DNA of 49,223 nucleotides from Nitrosotalea sp. (GTDB lineage Archaea > Thermoproteota > Nitrososphaeria > Nitrososphaerales > Nitrosopumilaceae), in the NCBI GenBank assembly GCA_023251295.1, contig JAHEYZ010000004.1, positions 1 to 49,223 of the forward strand, read 5' to 3'. Both the position numbers and the translations under genes were made by a program. How positions within the stretch are numbered: the stretch's first letter is position 1; each line of letters begins with the position of its first letter. The notes beneath the pieces are model-generated. The model worked only from the letters and a program-made list of their open reading frames with translations, was not told the origin of the DNA and searched no databases. Of the stretch, positions 4,686 through 18,016 are shown one piece after another.

Positions 4686-6317
4686 ATGCATTTTATTTCT
4701 AATAATGTTTTTACAATAATTTGTTCTCTCATACTTCTTTCCATCACATCTTCTGTTATACATTTTGAGGCTTATGGAGATGGTCTTACCATGGAAAATT
4801 TGCCTCCTGCAAGTGTAGGTAATAGGCAAGCAAGTCTTTTCATTCAAGTAAGTCCACCGATTTTAACTTCAGATACCGCTCAAGATACATTTTTGAAGCT
4901 GAGATTGTTTGACGCAAATAATAATCAAACAATACAATCCAATTCATTTTTTGTTAAAGTAACAAAAGACGAACAACTTCTAATGAGAGAGCTATTCTAT
5001 ACAAAATCTGGTGTTTTAACTATTAAATTCAAGCCAATCAACACACCAGGCAAATGGCAAGCTTATGGCGATATAGAACCCACTCTAGGTGGATGGACTG
5101 CAACTAATGATCAGGTACGAGTAGATGCTCCTGTCTTTTTAGAAGGAGGACTTTATCATTTTGAAATCAAATTCATTGGTATTGATGCAGCTAAAAATAT
5201 CTTCAAACAAGGTGATGAACCTACTTTTAATTCCTATCTAAGTGTAGGAGATGTTTTCAAAAAATCAGTTACTTATCAGGCAAAATCTTATGATACTACG
5301 ATTATCTCCTACTATGATAGAATAAAAGATTTTAAGTTCGATGAATCTAAAAAACTCATTTCCTTTTACATGCCATTTAATTGGAATGTATCAAGAATAG
5401 AAGGTCAAAACATCTTTGTTCATGAAGAAATCCAGATTCCAAAATCATTTAAAGACTTTGCAGACAATACATCATTTTCTGCTAAAGTAAATGGAATCCC
5501 ACTGGTTGGAAGAATGCTGGCCGTAGATCCCTACTCAAAAGAAGATGAATTGATTCTTCATTATTTAATAAACAAAAATGATATCCTAGAAATGTCAAAA
5601 AAAGTACCACCTACTACGAAGACTATGGATTTCACACTTTCTCCGGGAAATGTAGATGCTCAGACTTCCACCGAGATATTAACTGATTTTGGAGGATTCA
5701 GAGCTGAACTTGGATGGTCGCCAACGGATCTAAAAACAAACACAAAGACAGATCTCAAAGTGATTTTCTTTGATGCATTTTCAGGTAAACAGGTAGCTGG
5801 TGATGTAAAATATGATCTAAAGATACTTGATAAAAATGGTAATCCAGCATTTTCTAAAGCGAATCTTAATGCAATAGGAGCCACAGATACTCAATCGATT
5901 AATTTTGCAAACAACGGCGTTTACACGTTAGAAATAGATATCAAATCAATCACAATAACCGGAAAAACTGATTCTAGCAGACTAGGCATTGCTAGAGGTT
6001 ATGTTATCATACCATCAACTATTACTTCTAGTAATCCTACAGACGTAATTAAAATTCCTGACTGGGTTAGAAATAATGCAAAGTGGTGGTCAGAAGGTTC
6101 TATTGGTGACAAAGACTTTGCATCAGGAATTCAATACATGATTAAACAAGGAATAATCATAATACCTGTATCAGAAAATGGTGGATCTAACCAAAACATC
6201 AAGATTCCTGACTGGGTTAGAAATAATGCAAAGTGGTGGTCAGAAGGTTCTATTGGTGACAAAGACTTTGCATCAGGAATTCAATACATGATCAAGATGG
6301 GTATAATTACTGTATAG
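4686..6317 (+). CDS. Secreted protein with two C-terminal tandem W-rich repeats (IPDWVRNNAKWWSEGSIGDKDFASGIQYMIK)
   Basis: ORF 543 aa; signal peptide; two near-identical C-terminal repeats. Confidence 0.7.
   Translation: MHFISNNVFTIICSLILLSITSSVIHFEAYGDGLTMENLPPASVGNRQASLFIQVSPPILTSDTAQDTFLKLRLFDANNNQTIQSNSFFVKVTKDEQLLMRELFYTKSGVLTIKFKPINTPGKWQAYGDIEPTLGGWTATNDQVRVDAPVFLEGGLYHFEIKFIGIDAAKNIFKQGDEPTFNSYLSVGDVFKKSVTYQAKSYDTTIISYYDRIKDFKFDESKKLISFYMPFNWNVSRIEGQNIFVHEEIQIPKSFKDFADNTSFSAKVNGIPLVGRMLAVDPYSKEDELILHYLINKNDILEMSKKVPPTTKTMDFTLSPGNVDAQTSTEILTDFGGFRAELGWSPTDLKTNTKTDLKVIFFDAFSGKQVAGDVKYDLKILDKNGNPAFSKANLNAIGATDTQSINFANNGVYTLEIDIKSITITGKTDSSRLGIARGYVIIPSTITSSNPTDVIKIPDWVRNNAKWWSEGSIGDKDFASGIQYMIKQGIIIIPVSENGGSNQNIKIPDWVRNNAKWWSEGSIGDKDFASGIQYMIKMGIITV
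6054..6142 (+). repeat. 89-bp direct repeat, copy 1
   Basis: ATTCCTGACTGGGTTAGAAATAATGCAAAGTGGTGG...CAATACATGAT identical to 6204-6292. Confidence 0.95.
6204..6292 (+). repeat. 89-bp direct repeat, copy 2 (150 bp offset)
   Basis: Identical by eye to 6054-6142. Confidence 0.95.
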
Positions 6318-10286: not shown

Positions 10287-10448
10287 TTGTCAGTTGATGT
10301 TGTTTGTGGGAAATGTGGAACAAAAATAGCAAATATGCGAATGTTAAAATCTGTTAAAGAAGTTGTAAGACCATATAATAATAAATGTCCATCTTGTGGA
10401 CAAACTCTTTCCACATCTGAATTTTCTGTAGATGTACAAAAAAACTGA
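10287..10448 (+). CDS. Small zinc-ribbon protein (53 aa)
   Basis: TTG start; LSVDVVCGKCGTKIANMRMLKSVKEVVRPYNNKCPSCGQTLSTSEFSVDVQKN, two CxxC pairs. Absent from ORF track because short. Confidence 0.6.
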   Translation: MSVDVVCGKCGTKIANMRMLKSVKEVVRPYNNKCPSCGQTLSTSEFSVDVQKN

Positions 10449-10509: not shown

Positions 10510-12609
10510 ATGCCTATGGAACTAAGCGAAGATTTTGAAGATCAAAAACGGGGAGGAATATTACAATCCGCATCAAAGCGTGTAAGAATGATCTTTTCTG
10601 TGATGGCAAGTCCAAACAGGATCGATATACTACGTATTTTAAACTCAAAGGGACCACTTACTTATTCCGAACTAAAATCGCTTGCTGGTTTTAAATCAAA
10701 AAAGGAAAGTGGGAAATTTGCATATCACCTTAGAAAACTATTAAGACAATCTCTCGTGGCTCTAAATAAATCTGAAAGACGATACACTATCACAAACCTA
10801 GGAAAACTTGTTCTAAGTCTTGCAAGACAGATCGAGGAACGCTCTATTATAGAGAGTGGGAAGATGTATGTACGAACATCGCACGAGGCAATAGAGGAAT
10901 TTAACTCTCATAAGATAATACAATCTCTTGTACGAGAGGGCAGCCTTCCTTTAGAATTAGCACAAAAGATAACTGAAGAAGTAGAAAATCGCATCTACAA
11001 ATTCCAAACTACTTACCTCACCTCCTCACTTATACGTGAAATGGTCAATGCTGTTCTTTTAGAGCACGGTCACGAGGAATATAGGCATAAGCTTGCTAGA
11101 TTAGGTCTTCCTGCGTATGATATTCATGAAATGATTACAAACGTAGATGGTATACATAATGGCGTAGAAGGGTTACTTTTTAAGACTGGTCAAACAGTCT
11201 TTGGGGAACATCTTGTCCTTAACACATTACCAAAGGATGTAGCAGATTCACATCTTTCCGGTGATATACACTTAACAAATACTGGAATCTGGTCACTCTT
11301 ACCAGATACAATATTTGTAAACATAAAAGAACTACTTGAAGACGGAATTGATCTCCGTGGCAAATTCCTTGGGGTGACAAGAATGCCACCAATTAAGACA
11401 CTTGATGACCTTATAACATCACTATCATTAGTTACATCCTTACTGCTTAAGGAGGTATCACAAGAGGTAATTATAGATGGTTTAGTAACCGTTTTGCAAA
11501 AATTTTCAAAAAATCTTTCAGAAGTTGAAGAAAAAATTGCAAATGCCTTTGCAATAACATCAACCGCACCAAAATATAACGAAAATTCAGCACTAGCATC
11601 ATTTAGGATCCCACTTGGTTCTGATTCCAAGATAATAGCTGCTATACTTGCTGGCTACAAGAAATACATCAAATCAACACCACTTCCACATATTGGATTG
11701 ATAATTGATTATGAAAAAGGCAAAATCATGGAGTTTTCTGATCTGCTTTCAGAGATTATAGTATTAGGAGGCCGAATAATCTTCTCCAAAAGTCATATAT
11801 CTAACCATGGAATATTACGTGGAGATACAAAAAATACAGGAACATCAATTAACTTACAAGCACTCTCAATAAACCTACCACGACTTGCATTTGAATCCAA
11901 TAAAGATGAAACCTACTTTAGGGCACGTCTTGCAATTTTGATGAAGCCTGCACTTGCAGCAATGTCGCTTAGAAAGAAAGACATCTCCGATCTTACTAGA
12001 AGAGGACTAAATCCGATTCTTGCAAGCAACACCCAATATATGCAAAAGGGATCAGTAACCCTTGTTGTTAATCTATTAGGCCTAAAGGAGGCCGTATTAG
12101 GCATACTTGGCTATGAAAACAACAAAGCAGGAAACGAAATCATGACTAAGGTGCTTGAAACAGCTATAGAGGTCGCAGCCAAGAAGGGAAAAGAAATGGG
12201 TGATAATGTTACCATATCAATGACTGAAAGTGATGCTGCTACAAGATTCTCTACACTAGATGGAGAAAAATACGGTAAGATGTCTATTCACCAATTCGTT
12301 GAAGGTGATGCATATAGTGCTGGGATGACGTTAAATGCCTCAGAAATAGAGGGAATGACTCTAAAGACTGACAAGATTGCAGAATGTAATCATATATCAA
12401 AGATGCTGAACGGTGGGTTATTGATCCAACTAAAAATATCTAATGAAATGGACACAGTAGGAATTAAAAAAGCAATAGAAAAAACAAGTGAACTTGTAGG
12501 ATCATTTAGGCCGATCAGAAAAGTGTCTATATGTGGTAACTGTGGCCTAAAAGACGAAAAGATCACAGACAAGTGTCCTACATGCAAATCTCCATACATA
12601 TTAGCATAA
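10510..12609 (+). CDS. HTH + ATP-cone + NrdD-like (non-catalytic) + Zn-ribbon protein; candidate nucleotide-sensing regulator
   Basis: N-term ArsR-like wHTH (MASPNRIDILRILNSKGPLTYSELKSL); ATP-cone-like VRTSHEAIEEFNSHKIIQSL...IREMVNAVLLEHGHEEYRHKLARLGLPAYD; NrdD-like SGDIHLTNTG, SINLPRLAFES, LVVNLLGLKEAVLGILGYE, TESDAATRFSTLDGEKYG; C-term CGNC-x9-CPTC with no RxxGYLG glycyl-radical tail. Confidence 0.7.
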   Translation: MPMELSEDFEDQKRGGILQSASKRVRMIFSVMASPNRIDILRILNSKGPLTYSELKSLAGFKSKKESGKFAYHLRKLLRQSLVALNKSERRYTITNLGKLVLSLARQIEERSIIESGKMYVRTSHEAIEEFNSHKIIQSLVREGSLPLELAQKITEEVENRIYKFQTTYLTSSLIREMVNAVLLEHGHEEYRHKLARLGLPAYDIHEMITNVDGIHNGVEGLLFKTGQTVFGEHLVLNTLPKDVADSHLSGDIHLTNTGIWSLLPDTIFVNIKELLEDGIDLRGKFLGVTRMPPIKTLDDLITSLSLVTSLLLKEVSQEVIIDGLVTVLQKFSKNLSEVEEKIANAFAITSTAPKYNENSALASFRIPLGSDSKIIAAILAGYKKYIKSTPLPHIGLIIDYEKGKIMEFSDLLSEIIVLGGRIIFSKSHISNHGILRGDTKNTGTSINLQALSINLPRLAFESNKDETYFRARLAILMKPALAAMSLRKKDISDLTRRGLNPILASNTQYMQKGSVTLVVNLLGLKEAVLGILGYENNKAGNEIMTKVLETAIEVAAKKGKEMGDNVTISMTESDAATRFSTLDGEKYGKMSIHQFVEGDAYSAGMTLNASEIEGMTLKTDKIAECNHISKMLNGGLLIQLKISNEMDTVGIKKAIEKTSELVGSFRPIRKVSICGNCGLKDEKITDKCPTCKSPYILA

Positions 12610-12757
12610 ACATACTGAATAATCCTTGCTCGCTATAGTTAATACAGATCTTTTTTAAAAAAATTAAAAAATGGGATCATATTTTTCTGAAATTTATAAT
12701 AATATTTTTTTTGTTTTATTTAGAATCGATCAAATCCTCTGTGCAAATTGAAACGAT

Positions 12758-12772
12758 GTCAATAAAATTGAC
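12758..12772. promoter_or_regulatory. Perfect inverted repeat GTCAAT-AAA-ATTGAC upstream of nrdJ
   Basis: Read directly; about 79 bp upstream of the 12851 start codon and about 40 bp upstream of a TATA-like TTTATTATA (12812-12820). Confidence 0.5.
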
Positions 12773-12850
12773 GCAAAAATCAATTTTAGAAAAATATTTT
12801 TTGCCTCAATCTTTATTATACTCTATTTTCTTACTGTTGCGGGGAGACGT

Positions 12851-15508
12851 TTGACAGACTTTGCACAAATAGAAAACTCGATCATCGAAGTTAAAAAAAG
12901 AGATGGACGAGTATTAAATTTCCAGAAGGATAAAATCTCAAATGCAATATACAAAGCACTAGTTGCTTGTGGAAGACCAGATCATAGCCTAGCCGATAAA
13001 CTGGCTGAAGGAGTTATGATGCGACTTTTTAAACAAGGATTTTCAACGTCTTCTCCTCCAAGTGTAGAAGATGTTCAGGATATGGTTGAATCTATCCTAA
13101 TTGATGAAGGACTAGGTGAAATTGCCAAATCATACATACTTTACAGACACGAACGAAGAAAAATTCGGGAAGAAAAGATGAAGATTCTAAATGCAAAATT
13201 ACTTGATGATGTGTCAAAGAAATTTGACATTAATTGCCTAAGGGTCTTAGCATCTCGCTACCTATTTCGTAATAACAAAGGGGAAATAATCGAAAGCCCA
13301 GGGGAGATGTTTGAACGTGTGGCAGTCCTAGTTGGAATTGCAGATGTACTAAAAGATAATTCTGTTTTTGAAGTTAACGGTGGAAAAACCCAAAATTTAG
13401 AGGAGGCTAAAAAATATCTAGATAAACTTGACGATTTTAACTACAAATTCAAGATAGGCAAATACCACCTTAACAAGTGGCACTTTAGAGGATTAATCTC
13501 TCACTATATTGATCTTGCAAAGCGAGGTCAGATGAAAGTAAGTATAAAAGAATTTCTTACTATGCTTGCAGCAAAACAATTCGAACATTATGCAGAAAGA
13601 ATCTCAGAATATTATGAAATGATGGTATCTCAAGACTTTCTACCAAACTCTCCAACCATGATGAATGCTGGTGGGAGACTAGGACAGCTATCTGCATGCT
13701 TTGTACTTGCCATGCCTGATGATATGGAACAAATAATGAAATCATCTTCAGATGCTGCCTTAATCTTCAAATCAGGTGGAGGAGTTGGAATCAATTACTC
13801 TGATCTAAGAGAAGAAGGCGATATGGTTGCATCTACATCTGGTGTTGCTTCTGGACCGGTTTCTTTCATGAATATCATAAACACAGTAACAGAAGTTGTT
13901 AAGCAAGGAGGAAAACGCAGAGGTGCAAACATGGGAATAATTGAAGCATGGCATCCAGATATTGAAAAATTTATTACTGCAAAAACAAAACCGGGGGTTT
14001 TAGAAAACTTCAATGTGAGTGTTGGAGTGTGGGAAGACTTGTGGAGCTCACTTGTAAATTCTAATGATGGAAAATACATGCTTCGTAGTCCGCGTGACAA
14101 GAGTCCAGTACGTGAAGTAAACGCCAATCAACTCCTAGATCTAATAGCACTATCAGCTTGGAAGAGTGCCGAACCTGGATTAATCTTCTTTGATCAAATT
14201 AACAAATACAATGTATTTGCAAAAGCACGTGGTGGACCATTACGAGCAACTAACCCATGTGGAGAACAAAGTTTGTATCCTTATGAATCATGTAATCTTG
14301 GATCTATCAATCTTTCAAACTTTGTAAAAAGAAAAGCCGATGGACAGTACGAATTTGATTGGCAAAGATATGAAGAAGTAATAAGAAAGACTACAAGATT
14401 CCTTGATGATGTAATCGATGTAAATAATTATCCAATACCCGAGATCAATGAGGCCTCAAAAGATTCACGTAGAATTGGACTTGGTGTTATGGGTGTCGCC
14501 GATCTTCTATTCAAGCTGCGAATTCCATACAACTCACGAGAGGGTTATGAATTCCAAGAAAAACTAGCAGAGGCTCTGAGCTATTACTCGATGGAAGAAA
14601 GTGTAGCTCTGGCAAAGACACGAGGGGCATTTTCGCTTTGCGGAAAAACCGAGTATCCTGAAGGAAAAATTCCAATTGCAGGTTATTATGAAAAACCAAA
14701 GAGTACCCATTATTATGATTGGGATGCACTTGTTGAAAAAATCCAAAAACACGGAATAAGAAATGTGCTTACATCTACAGTAGCTCCTACAGGAACACTT
14801 TCTATGATAGCTGATTGTTCTAATGGAATGGAACCAATGTTCGCACTTGTATTTGAAAAGCGTGTCACCGTTGGTAGATTTTTCTATACTAACAAGATTT
14901 TTGAATCTGTTCTAAAAGAACATGGACTGTACAATGATCAAATCTTAGAAAAGATTGCAAACAATTATGGATCAGTAAAAGGAATTCCAGAAATTCCAGA
15001 ATGGATACAGAACATATTCGTGACTGCAATGGACATACACTGGACTGATCACTTGATGGCACAAGCTGTATGGCAAAGATGGATTGGAAATGCAATAGCT
15101 AAAACAATCAATATGCCAAATGATGTAACAGCGGATGATGTTAAAGCGTCATATTTGTTAGCCCATGAGCTTGGACTAAAAGGAATCACTGTATTTAGAG
15201 ATGGTTCACGACACGAACAAGTTCTTCACATGACTGGTGACAACGTACAAAAAACATTCCAAGTAGTACCAAGCACCTTCCTGACAGATTACATTGCAAA
15301 AGGTGTTACTAATCCGTATTTGAAAGCTCAGATTGAAAAAGCACTACAAATCAAGATTCCTGATAGTGAAGTAAAACTACAACAAAACCAACTTACACAA
15401 GAACAAATGGAAGAAAGATTGTGTCCTACATGCAAAAATAATCTAGTTTTTGCAGAAGGATGTAACATCTGTATAGAATGTGGATATAGCGGCTGTACCT
15501 CAGGATAG
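12851..15508 (+). CDS. nrdJ: Adenosylcobalamin-dependent (class II) ribonucleoside-diphosphate reductase with N-terminal ATP-cone
   Basis: IIEVKKRDGRVLNFQKDKISNAIYKAL ATP-cone; SACFVLAMPDDM; NPCGEQSLYPYESCNLGSINLSNFV; TSTVAPTGTLSMIADCSNGMEPMFALVFEK; C-term CPTC..C..C. TTG start. Confidence 0.95.
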   Translation: MTDFAQIENSIIEVKKRDGRVLNFQKDKISNAIYKALVACGRPDHSLADKLAEGVMMRLFKQGFSTSSPPSVEDVQDMVESILIDEGLGEIAKSYILYRHERRKIREEKMKILNAKLLDDVSKKFDINCLRVLASRYLFRNNKGEIIESPGEMFERVAVLVGIADVLKDNSVFEVNGGKTQNLEEAKKYLDKLDDFNYKFKIGKYHLNKWHFRGLISHYIDLAKRGQMKVSIKEFLTMLAAKQFEHYAERISEYYEMMVSQDFLPNSPTMMNAGGRLGQLSACFVLAMPDDMEQIMKSSSDAALIFKSGGGVGINYSDLREEGDMVASTSGVASGPVSFMNIINTVTEVVKQGGKRRGANMGIIEAWHPDIEKFITAKTKPGVLENFNVSVGVWEDLWSSLVNSNDGKYMLRSPRDKSPVREVNANQLLDLIALSAWKSAEPGLIFFDQINKYNVFAKARGGPLRATNPCGEQSLYPYESCNLGSINLSNFVKRKADGQYEFDWQRYEEVIRKTTRFLDDVIDVNNYPIPEINEASKDSRRIGLGVMGVADLLFKLRIPYNSREGYEFQEKLAEALSYYSMEESVALAKTRGAFSLCGKTEYPEGKIPIAGYYEKPKSTHYYDWDALVEKIQKHGIRNVLTSTVAPTGTLSMIADCSNGMEPMFALVFEKRVTVGRFFYTNKIFESVLKEHGLYNDQILEKIANNYGSVKGIPEIPEWIQNIFVTAMDIHWTDHLMAQAVWQRWIGNAIAKTINMPNDVTADDVKASYLLAHELGLKGITVFRDGSRHEQVLHMTGDNVQKTFQVVPSTFLTDYIAKGVTNPYLKAQIEKALQIKIPDSEVKLQQNQLTQEQMEERLCPTCKNNLVFAEGCNICIECGYSGCTSG

Positions 15509-16807: not shown

Positions 16808-16834
16808 TTATTGTATGAAGGAGATTCTGTATAC

Positions 16835-18016
16835 TTGAGATATTCGACATTTCTTGTCATATCGCTACTATTTGTAAATTTTATTCCTGTATTTGGTGAT
16901 GATTACATTTCTCCCACAACACAAGAACAACAACTATACGAAAAATTACTTTCGGAATTTATGAGACTCAATATTGAAAAAAAGGATGTAAGCCAAGTTC
17001 TTGAAACGTTTGAAAAACCATTAGTGATTTCTTTTCCATGTAATTCAACCGATAAAATTAATCAAGTAGTTAGCGTAATAAAAACAAAATTGACAAGATT
17101 TGATGAGACACAAACACATGAAGAAGGAGTAATCACGGGTGGAACATACACTTGGAAATGTACTGTTACAACTATGGAAGGAAAGGTAACCATGGATTGT
17201 AATAATGAACTTAAAATAAATTCTGATTATATAATGCATGATGTACAAAAAGATTCAAGAATAAAAAAAATTGAAAATCAAATCATGATGTATCATGAAT
17301 TTCTTCATGGTGAGTTAATGATTGATGCTATAACATCATCTGAAAAATGGAGAGAGGATACATGTAACAAACCATCGGGAGAAAAAATAGATTATTCATA
17401 TTCGGACAAAACCCATAAAATAATTAATCCACTTCAACAAGAATTTGCTTCTCAATTAATAGAACAAGCTGGTGGTAAAATGGTTGTGAAAGAAATTCCC
17501 GTAGAAGAGACTAATGGTGGTTCATTTGCCAAAAAAGTAGGAAGTCTAAACGATTTCCCACAATTTATCAAAAATGGAATTAGTGTTAGTTTACGTGGAA
17601 CGAATCTTTTTAATACAAAATTCTCGTCACAAGACTCTGATATTATTCTATATGGCAATCTCATAAACAAAACTGAATCTGGAATTGCCTGGCTTTACAT
17701 TTTTGGTATGCAGGCGGAACAACCAGGTGATAAGCAATTAACAGAAACTAAAATCCACATTCCAGAATGGATTAAGAAAAACGCTGGTTGGTGGGTAGAT
17801 GGTTCAATAAATAACACGGATTTTCTTAAAGGAATTGAATATCTCATACAACACGGTGTAATATCTTTACCACATACTGAAAAACAACATAATGTAGATA
17901 AAATTCCAAACTGGGTAAAACAAAATGCCGCTTTGTGGTATGAAGGAAAGATAGATGATAAAACATTTGCCGCAGGTATTCAATACCTTATATCGATTGG
18001 AATTATCTCAGTTTAA
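16835..18016 (+). CDS. Secreted protein with two C-terminal W-rich repeats
   Basis: TTG start giving LRYSTFLVISLLFVNF signal peptide; IPEWIKKNAGWWVDGSINNTDFLKGIEYLIQHGVI and IPNWVKQNAALWYEGKIDDKTFAAGIQYLISIGII. Confidence 0.65.
   Translation: MRYSTFLVISLLFVNFIPVFGDDYISPTTQEQQLYEKLLSEFMRLNIEKKDVSQVLETFEKPLVISFPCNSTDKINQVVSVIKTKLTRFDETQTHEEGVITGGTYTWKCTVTTMEGKVTMDCNNELKINSDYIMHDVQKDSRIKKIENQIMMYHEFLHGELMIDAITSSEKWREDTCNKPSGEKIDYSYSDKTHKIINPLQQEFASQLIEQAGGKMVVKEIPVEETNGGSFAKKVGSLNDFPQFIKNGISVSLRGTNLFNTKFSSQDSDIILYGNLINKTESGIAWLYIFGMQAEQPGDKQLTETKIHIPEWIKKNAGWWVDGSINNTDFLKGIEYLIQHGVISLPHTEKQHNVDKIPNWVKQNAALWYEGKIDDKTFAAGIQYLISIGIISV

Follow-up and report, generated by a model that had tools for sequence, protein, structure and literature searches.

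Three described systems come closest to the protein considered here. NrdR, the bacterial repressor of ribonucleotide reductase (RNR) genes (TIGR00244), is a protein of about 150 aa, which senses nucleotides through an ATP-cone and binds DNA with an N-terminal Zn ribbon. The class III RNR, NrdD (PF13597/TIGR02487; T. maritima 4coi, P. copri 8p23), also has an ATP-cone, together with a full-length barrel and a Zn ribbon, and in the P. copri enzyme roles have been described for Cys171, Cys416, Gly711, and the NxN flap (PMC11226230). The classical members of the ArsR/SmtB-type regulators (HlyU, 3jth; CadC, 1u2w; CzrA, 1r1u) are metal or redox sensors of about 100 aa with a winged helix-turn-helix (HTH). 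To our knowledge, there is no account of how dNTP supply is controlled in archaea without NrdR; no paper on this subject was found in the open-licence literature, nor any description of an architecture in which an HTH, an ATP-cone, and a catalytically dead NrdD are joined.

Such a protein is encoded in the window, that is, the whole 49,223-nucleotide stretch of Nitrosotalea sp. DNA that was analysed, which belongs to a 953-kb, 69% complete assembly near Nitrosotalea-like Nitrosopumilales. A homologue with 96% protein identity is present in Nitrosotalea sp. nzgw12. The gene and the parts of its product are the following:
10510..12609, + strand: HTH-ATP-cone-pseudoNrdD gene, candidate RNR regulator, 699 aa (ORF call and Pfam domains)
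10573..10824, + strand: ArsR-type winged HTH, residues 22-105, with the recognition-helix region ESGKFAYHLRKL (Pfam and profiles)
10861..11109, + strand: ATP-cone, residues 118-200, with a VRTS variant of the KRDG loop (Pfam and alignment)
11110..12504, + strand: NrdD-like catalytic-barrel domain without catalytic residues, residues 201-665 (hhalign, alignment, and Foldseek)
12532..12585, + strand: Zn ribbon, C675xxC678-x10-C689xxC692 (cysteine positions and alignment)

The protein would share with NrdR its presumed job, that is, control of RNR genes with nucleotide sensing by an ATP-cone, and a Zn ribbon is found in both, but the presumed DNA-binding part of this protein is a winged HTH, its ribbon corresponds to the C-terminal one of NrdD, and a whole dead NrdD barrel is added. 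With NrdD it has in common the ATP-cone, the full-length barrel, and, in most family members, the ribbon, while it differs by the added HTH and by the lack of both catalytic cysteines, the NxN flap, and the glycyl radical. Its N-terminal winged HTH resembles those of the ArsR/SmtB-type regulators, whereas the putative sensor is the ATP-cone with the pseudo-RNR. Judged from its sequence, the protein belongs neither to the NrdR family nor to the NrdD enzymes. We consider it quite probable that it controls RNR specifically, as a one-component transcription regulator that senses nucleotides; it would be NrdR-like in its role and based on a pseudoenzyme. Since a dead RNR has been joined to a DNA-binding domain, and its gene mostly lies beside that of a working enzyme, the protein probably senses nucleotide levels and controls the adjoining RNR gene; we infer both its DNA binding and the nucleotide as its ligand.

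The matches to the winged HTH (DUF7347, E 2e-10; HTH_20, E 6e-8; residues 28-102), the ATP-cone (PF03477, residues 119-191, E 8e-9), and NRDD (PF13597, residues 437-694, E 5e-24) were all above the curated Pfam cut-offs, in agreement with the first-pass annotation, which had read an ArsR-like winged helix and an ATP-cone-like segment from the letters of the DNA. The N-terminal part of a profile built from HTH-bearing members also matched ArsR-type structures (HlyU 1e-3, CadC 5e-3, and CzrA; E 1e-3 to 6e-2). The same profile (24 members) aligned with that of eight true archaeal NrdDs over 665 columns at 20% identity (hhalign, E 1.7e-109) and matched the class III RNR structures 9d3x (4e-35), 4coi (3e-33), and 8p23 (6e-30). 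The AlphaFold2 model of the window protein, made from a shallow alignment of Nitrosopumilales sequences only, was weak (mean pLDDT 51.6, pTM 0.43), thus the homology to NrdD rests on the profiles, although the best 28 PDB matches of this low-confidence model in Foldseek were all class III RNRs. The NrdD likeness noticed earlier in several motifs was upheld by these comparisons, but it is wider than the motifs listed and extends from about residue 201 to the C-terminus. The window protein scored 81.9 bits against the NrdD equivalog TIGR02487, below its cut-off of 326.35, and the NrdR model TIGR00244 was not among its NCBIfam matches.

The whole 699-aa protein has five cysteines, of which the first, C626, lies in AECNH, as had been stated, and the other four (675, 678, 689, and 692) form the Zn ribbon. 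The ribbon itself was correctly recognised in the first-pass annotation; its spacing is, however, CxxC-x10-CxxC and not x9. The chain stops 7 residues past the last Zn cysteine, where the glycyl-radical loop would start, and no glycyl-radical segment was found in the C-terminal sequence, so the missing radical tail was also read properly. The ATP-cone carries VRTS instead of the canonical KRDG, as do active NrdDs of the same phylum (L094 and L115).

The loss of catalytic residues was followed in an alignment of 40 diverse family members and nine true NrdDs of the same phylum; in two of the 40 the N-terminus is missing from the contig and the HTH is not visible. All nine true NrdDs have both active-site cysteines, the NxN flap, and the radical glycine. 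No member has a cysteine in the Cys1 column or in the Cys2a column (0/40 vs. 9/9 in both), which bears out the earlier claim that the catalytic cysteines are gone, and a single one has it in the neighbouring, poorly aligned Cys2b column. A residue aligned with the NxN flap was found in 0/40 members compared with 9/9 true NrdDs, while glycine occupies the radical column in three members, none with the TGYYQ motif, and in 9/9 true NrdDs. The full catalytic set was present in none of the 40 members and in each of the nine NrdDs. In the window protein the Cys1 position is T267, the Cys2 position falls at about N432 in a weakly aligned loop, and the NxN flap is absent. The Zn-ribbon cysteines were retained in 30/40 members, and the remaining ten have no ribbon. 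In a tree built without the HTH part, which is unrooted and has several long branches, 39 members and the nine true NrdDs stood on opposite sides of one branch with a support of 100/100. Some members without a Zn ribbon (L101-L105 and L108-L110) are also shorter, 535-602 aa, and in L108 no Pfam match to the ATP-cone or NRDD is left; these short members suggest further decay toward a minimal regulator.

Matches to the protein were found in 109 of 121 genomes of the class and in 113 of 151 genomes of the phylum Thermoproteota, where some of them are weak or belong to true NrdDs. The family occurs in nearly all of the ammonia-oxidising archaea that were examined and in many related Thermoproteota. 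A recent pseudogene was ruled out, as the reading frame is uninterrupted and conserved: 93 of the 94 good-quality genomes of the class have a match. By these matches and the alignment columns, the HTH-ATP-cone-pseudoNrdD proteins are an old, near-universal family in the class, in which the catalytic features were lost. NrdR exceeded the TIGR00244 cut-off in 0/41 family genomes, while the controls were positive in 9/14. Phage records gave only distant NrdD-like matches.

As the first-pass annotation had pointed out, the next gene of size downstream encodes the class II RNR:
12851..15508, + strand: nrdJ, class II (adenosylcobalamin) RNR, presumed target (NrdJ_Z, E 7e-220)
It starts 241 bp downstream of the regulator gene on the same strand, and its product has an N-terminal ATP-cone-like segment of its own (KKRDG). 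The search for the architecture and its linkage to nrdJ showed that the family is widespread in Thermoproteota and that nrdJ adjoins the regulator on the same strand in 73/76 Nitrosopumilales loci, some of which derive from one genome or from closely related ones. Of the three other loci, two are truncated by contig ends, and in the third, from a divergent genus, about 2 kb downstream are free of nrdJ. Outside Nitrosopumilales, nrdJ adjoins the regulator in further families of the same class (f39, f40 with six loci, f41, f42, and f45). The adjoining NrdJ of f41 is distant, with 32% identity to that of the window; at this locus (L140:6768-11335) it occupies the same position beside the regulator, as if the enzyme gene had been swapped and the regulator kept. 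In f45 the two genes are convergent on opposite strands, 5 to 150 bp apart, at 3/3 loci (L142, L143, and L152), therefore the linkage there is not an operon. The order is regulator then nrdJ in f15, and in four families (f24, f34, f38, and f26) the adjoining gene is a true nrdD. Altogether, 11 family codes showed linkage to an RNR gene, and two RNR classes and two orientations are represented among them, while about 20 other family codes, about two thirds of those sampled, had no RNR gene within the stretch examined. With two or three RNR genes per approximately 1,600 genes, adjacency in 11 families is far beyond chance, by a rough estimate in which the families are partly dependent.

The domains of the protein are not conserved to the same extent. 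Mean pairwise identity among diverse members was 61.7% in the ATP-cone, 44% in the HTH, and 30-32% in the barrel, and within Nitrosopumilales it was 95%, 99.9%, and 71-85%, respectively. True NrdDs differ in this respect, as their barrel is conserved as strongly as the cone. Thus, the ATP-cone and the HTH are the best conserved parts, as predicted by a role that combines a sensor with DNA binding. The same pattern bears on an alternative that we regard as unlikely, namely, that the protein is a regulatory pseudo-subunit, which binds the NrdJ or NrdD protein, for example, via the ATP-cone or an NrdD-type dimer interface, and modulates its activity, the HTH serving as a protein contact. NrdD is a dimer and RNR oligomerisation is mediated by ATP-cones (PMC11226230), physical partners are often encoded by linked genes, and in four families the partner would be a homologous NrdD. 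However, the Nitrosopumilales genomes, in which NrdJ, a distant class II enzyme, would be the partner, gave no second NrdD-like match; the linkage also persists with very different nrdJ genes, and the HTH, which is the best conserved part in this group, is a winged helix of the ArsR type and thus what DNA recognition would call for.

Two elements were located in the leader of nrdJ:
12757..12771, + strand: candidate operator TGTCAATAAAATTGA, in this genome a GTCAAT-AAA-ATTGAC inverted repeat with a single occurrence, conserved in nrdJ leaders
12812..12820, + strand: putative nrdJ TATA box TTTATTATA, 40 bp downstream of the candidate operator
The latter is what we take to be a TATA box from the archaeal promoter consensus. 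In the nrdJ leaders of Nitrosopumilaceae, the partial inverted repeat TGTCAA-N5-TTGA is conserved 40 bp ahead of the TATA box, and the pattern TGTNAA-N5-TTGA occurred exactly in 64 of 73 Nitrosopumilales nrdJ leaders, mostly 83-97 bp ahead of the start codon. In genome-wide searches allowing up to three mismatches, G000, G029, and G089 each had a single copy of the candidate operator, which lay in the nrdJ leader. When 21 family genomes were searched, matches were mainly in the nearer relatives of the window, and most three-mismatch matches are probably due to chance. The TGTCAA-N5-TTGA element is confined to Nitrosopumilaceae; other lineages showed a weak enrichment of the TGTCAA half-site (resampling P 0.001-0.014), in which few loci drive the signal, and L143 has a TTGTCAA-N6-TTGACAA repeat. 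The same operator is not claimed for these lineages, as the half-site enrichment is weak. Autoregulation through this element was also rejected, since no copy of TGTCAA-N5-TTGA was seen ahead of the gene that encodes the regulator. We infer that the regulator binds the TGTCAA-N5-TTGA element. Archaeal regulator sites that precede BRE/TATA more often serve activators. Because the candidate operator lies 40 bp upstream of the TATA box, a position more typical of an archaeal activator than of a repressor, we lean slightly to activation as the sign of the control.

It is also improbable, in our judgement, that the protein, as a transcription factor responding to nucleotides, governs a wider or another set of genes (replication, repair, or growth state), with RNR being only one target or an inherited neighbour. 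Many families without an adjoining RNR gene would fit this explanation, as would an nrdJ-leader element that is not assignable to the regulator from sequence alone; on the other side, this element is single in the three genomes where the site could be placed, and inheritance of a neighbour alone explains poorly a linkage that in 11 family codes spans two RNR classes and a changed orientation. A still active ribonucleotide reductase with relocated catalytic residues was rejected on the catalytic columns and is hardly conceivable, because, despite being a full-length NrdD homologue, the first cysteine of the window protein is residue 626, both the glycyl-radical segment and the NxN flap are absent, and the neighbouring gene encodes a complete NrdJ.

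The reading as a dedicated RNR regulator, which the first-pass annotation had proposed in the form of a nucleotide-sensing regulator reusing an RNR fold, gains support from two independent tests, namely, the conserved family of dead NrdDs and its linkage to RNR genes of either class. The family probably arose from a class III RNR to which an ArsR-type winged HTH was added N-terminally; catalysis would then have been lost with both cysteines, the glycyl radical, and the substrate flap, while the ATP-cone and the NrdD fold were kept. Occupancy of the ATP-cone by ATP or dATP could alter the oligomeric state or the spacing of the HTHs, and the former specificity site of the dimer may receive a dNTP as a further input. 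The changed oligomer or HTH spacing would determine how the protein binds an operator in front of the RNR gene, here presumably the TGTCAA-N5-TTGA element upstream of the nrdJ TATA box. A more far-reaching version, which we put forward tentatively and rate slightly short of even, is that the whole dead RNR acts as the sensor. It would read ATP/dATP at the cone and possibly the other dNTPs at the former specificity site; a frozen copy of the living enzyme's allosteric logic would thereby govern the genes of that enzyme. The protein would then be a core dNTP regulator of ammonia-oxidising and related archaea, with one origin from NrdD, and kept later beside different RNR classes. Control of RNR genes by this protein would add to NrdR a second type of ATP-cone transcription regulator that is unrelated to it. 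It would also show clearly how an enzyme can become the sensor of its own pathway, and some of the most abundant archaea would have in it a conserved control gene.

Two further observations were made in the window. Just upstream of the regulator, a mini-ORF with a TTG start (10287-10448, + strand) encodes a 53-aa CxxC...CxxC zinc-ribbon protein, which is conserved at that place in Nitrosopumilales, has tblastn matches in some other lineages, and is possibly co-transcribed with the regulator. At 4686-6317 and 16811-18016 (+ strand), two otherwise different predicted secreted proteins are encoded, which have tandem C-terminal modules of the IPDWVRNNAKWWSEGSIGDKDFASGIQYMIKQGII type in common.
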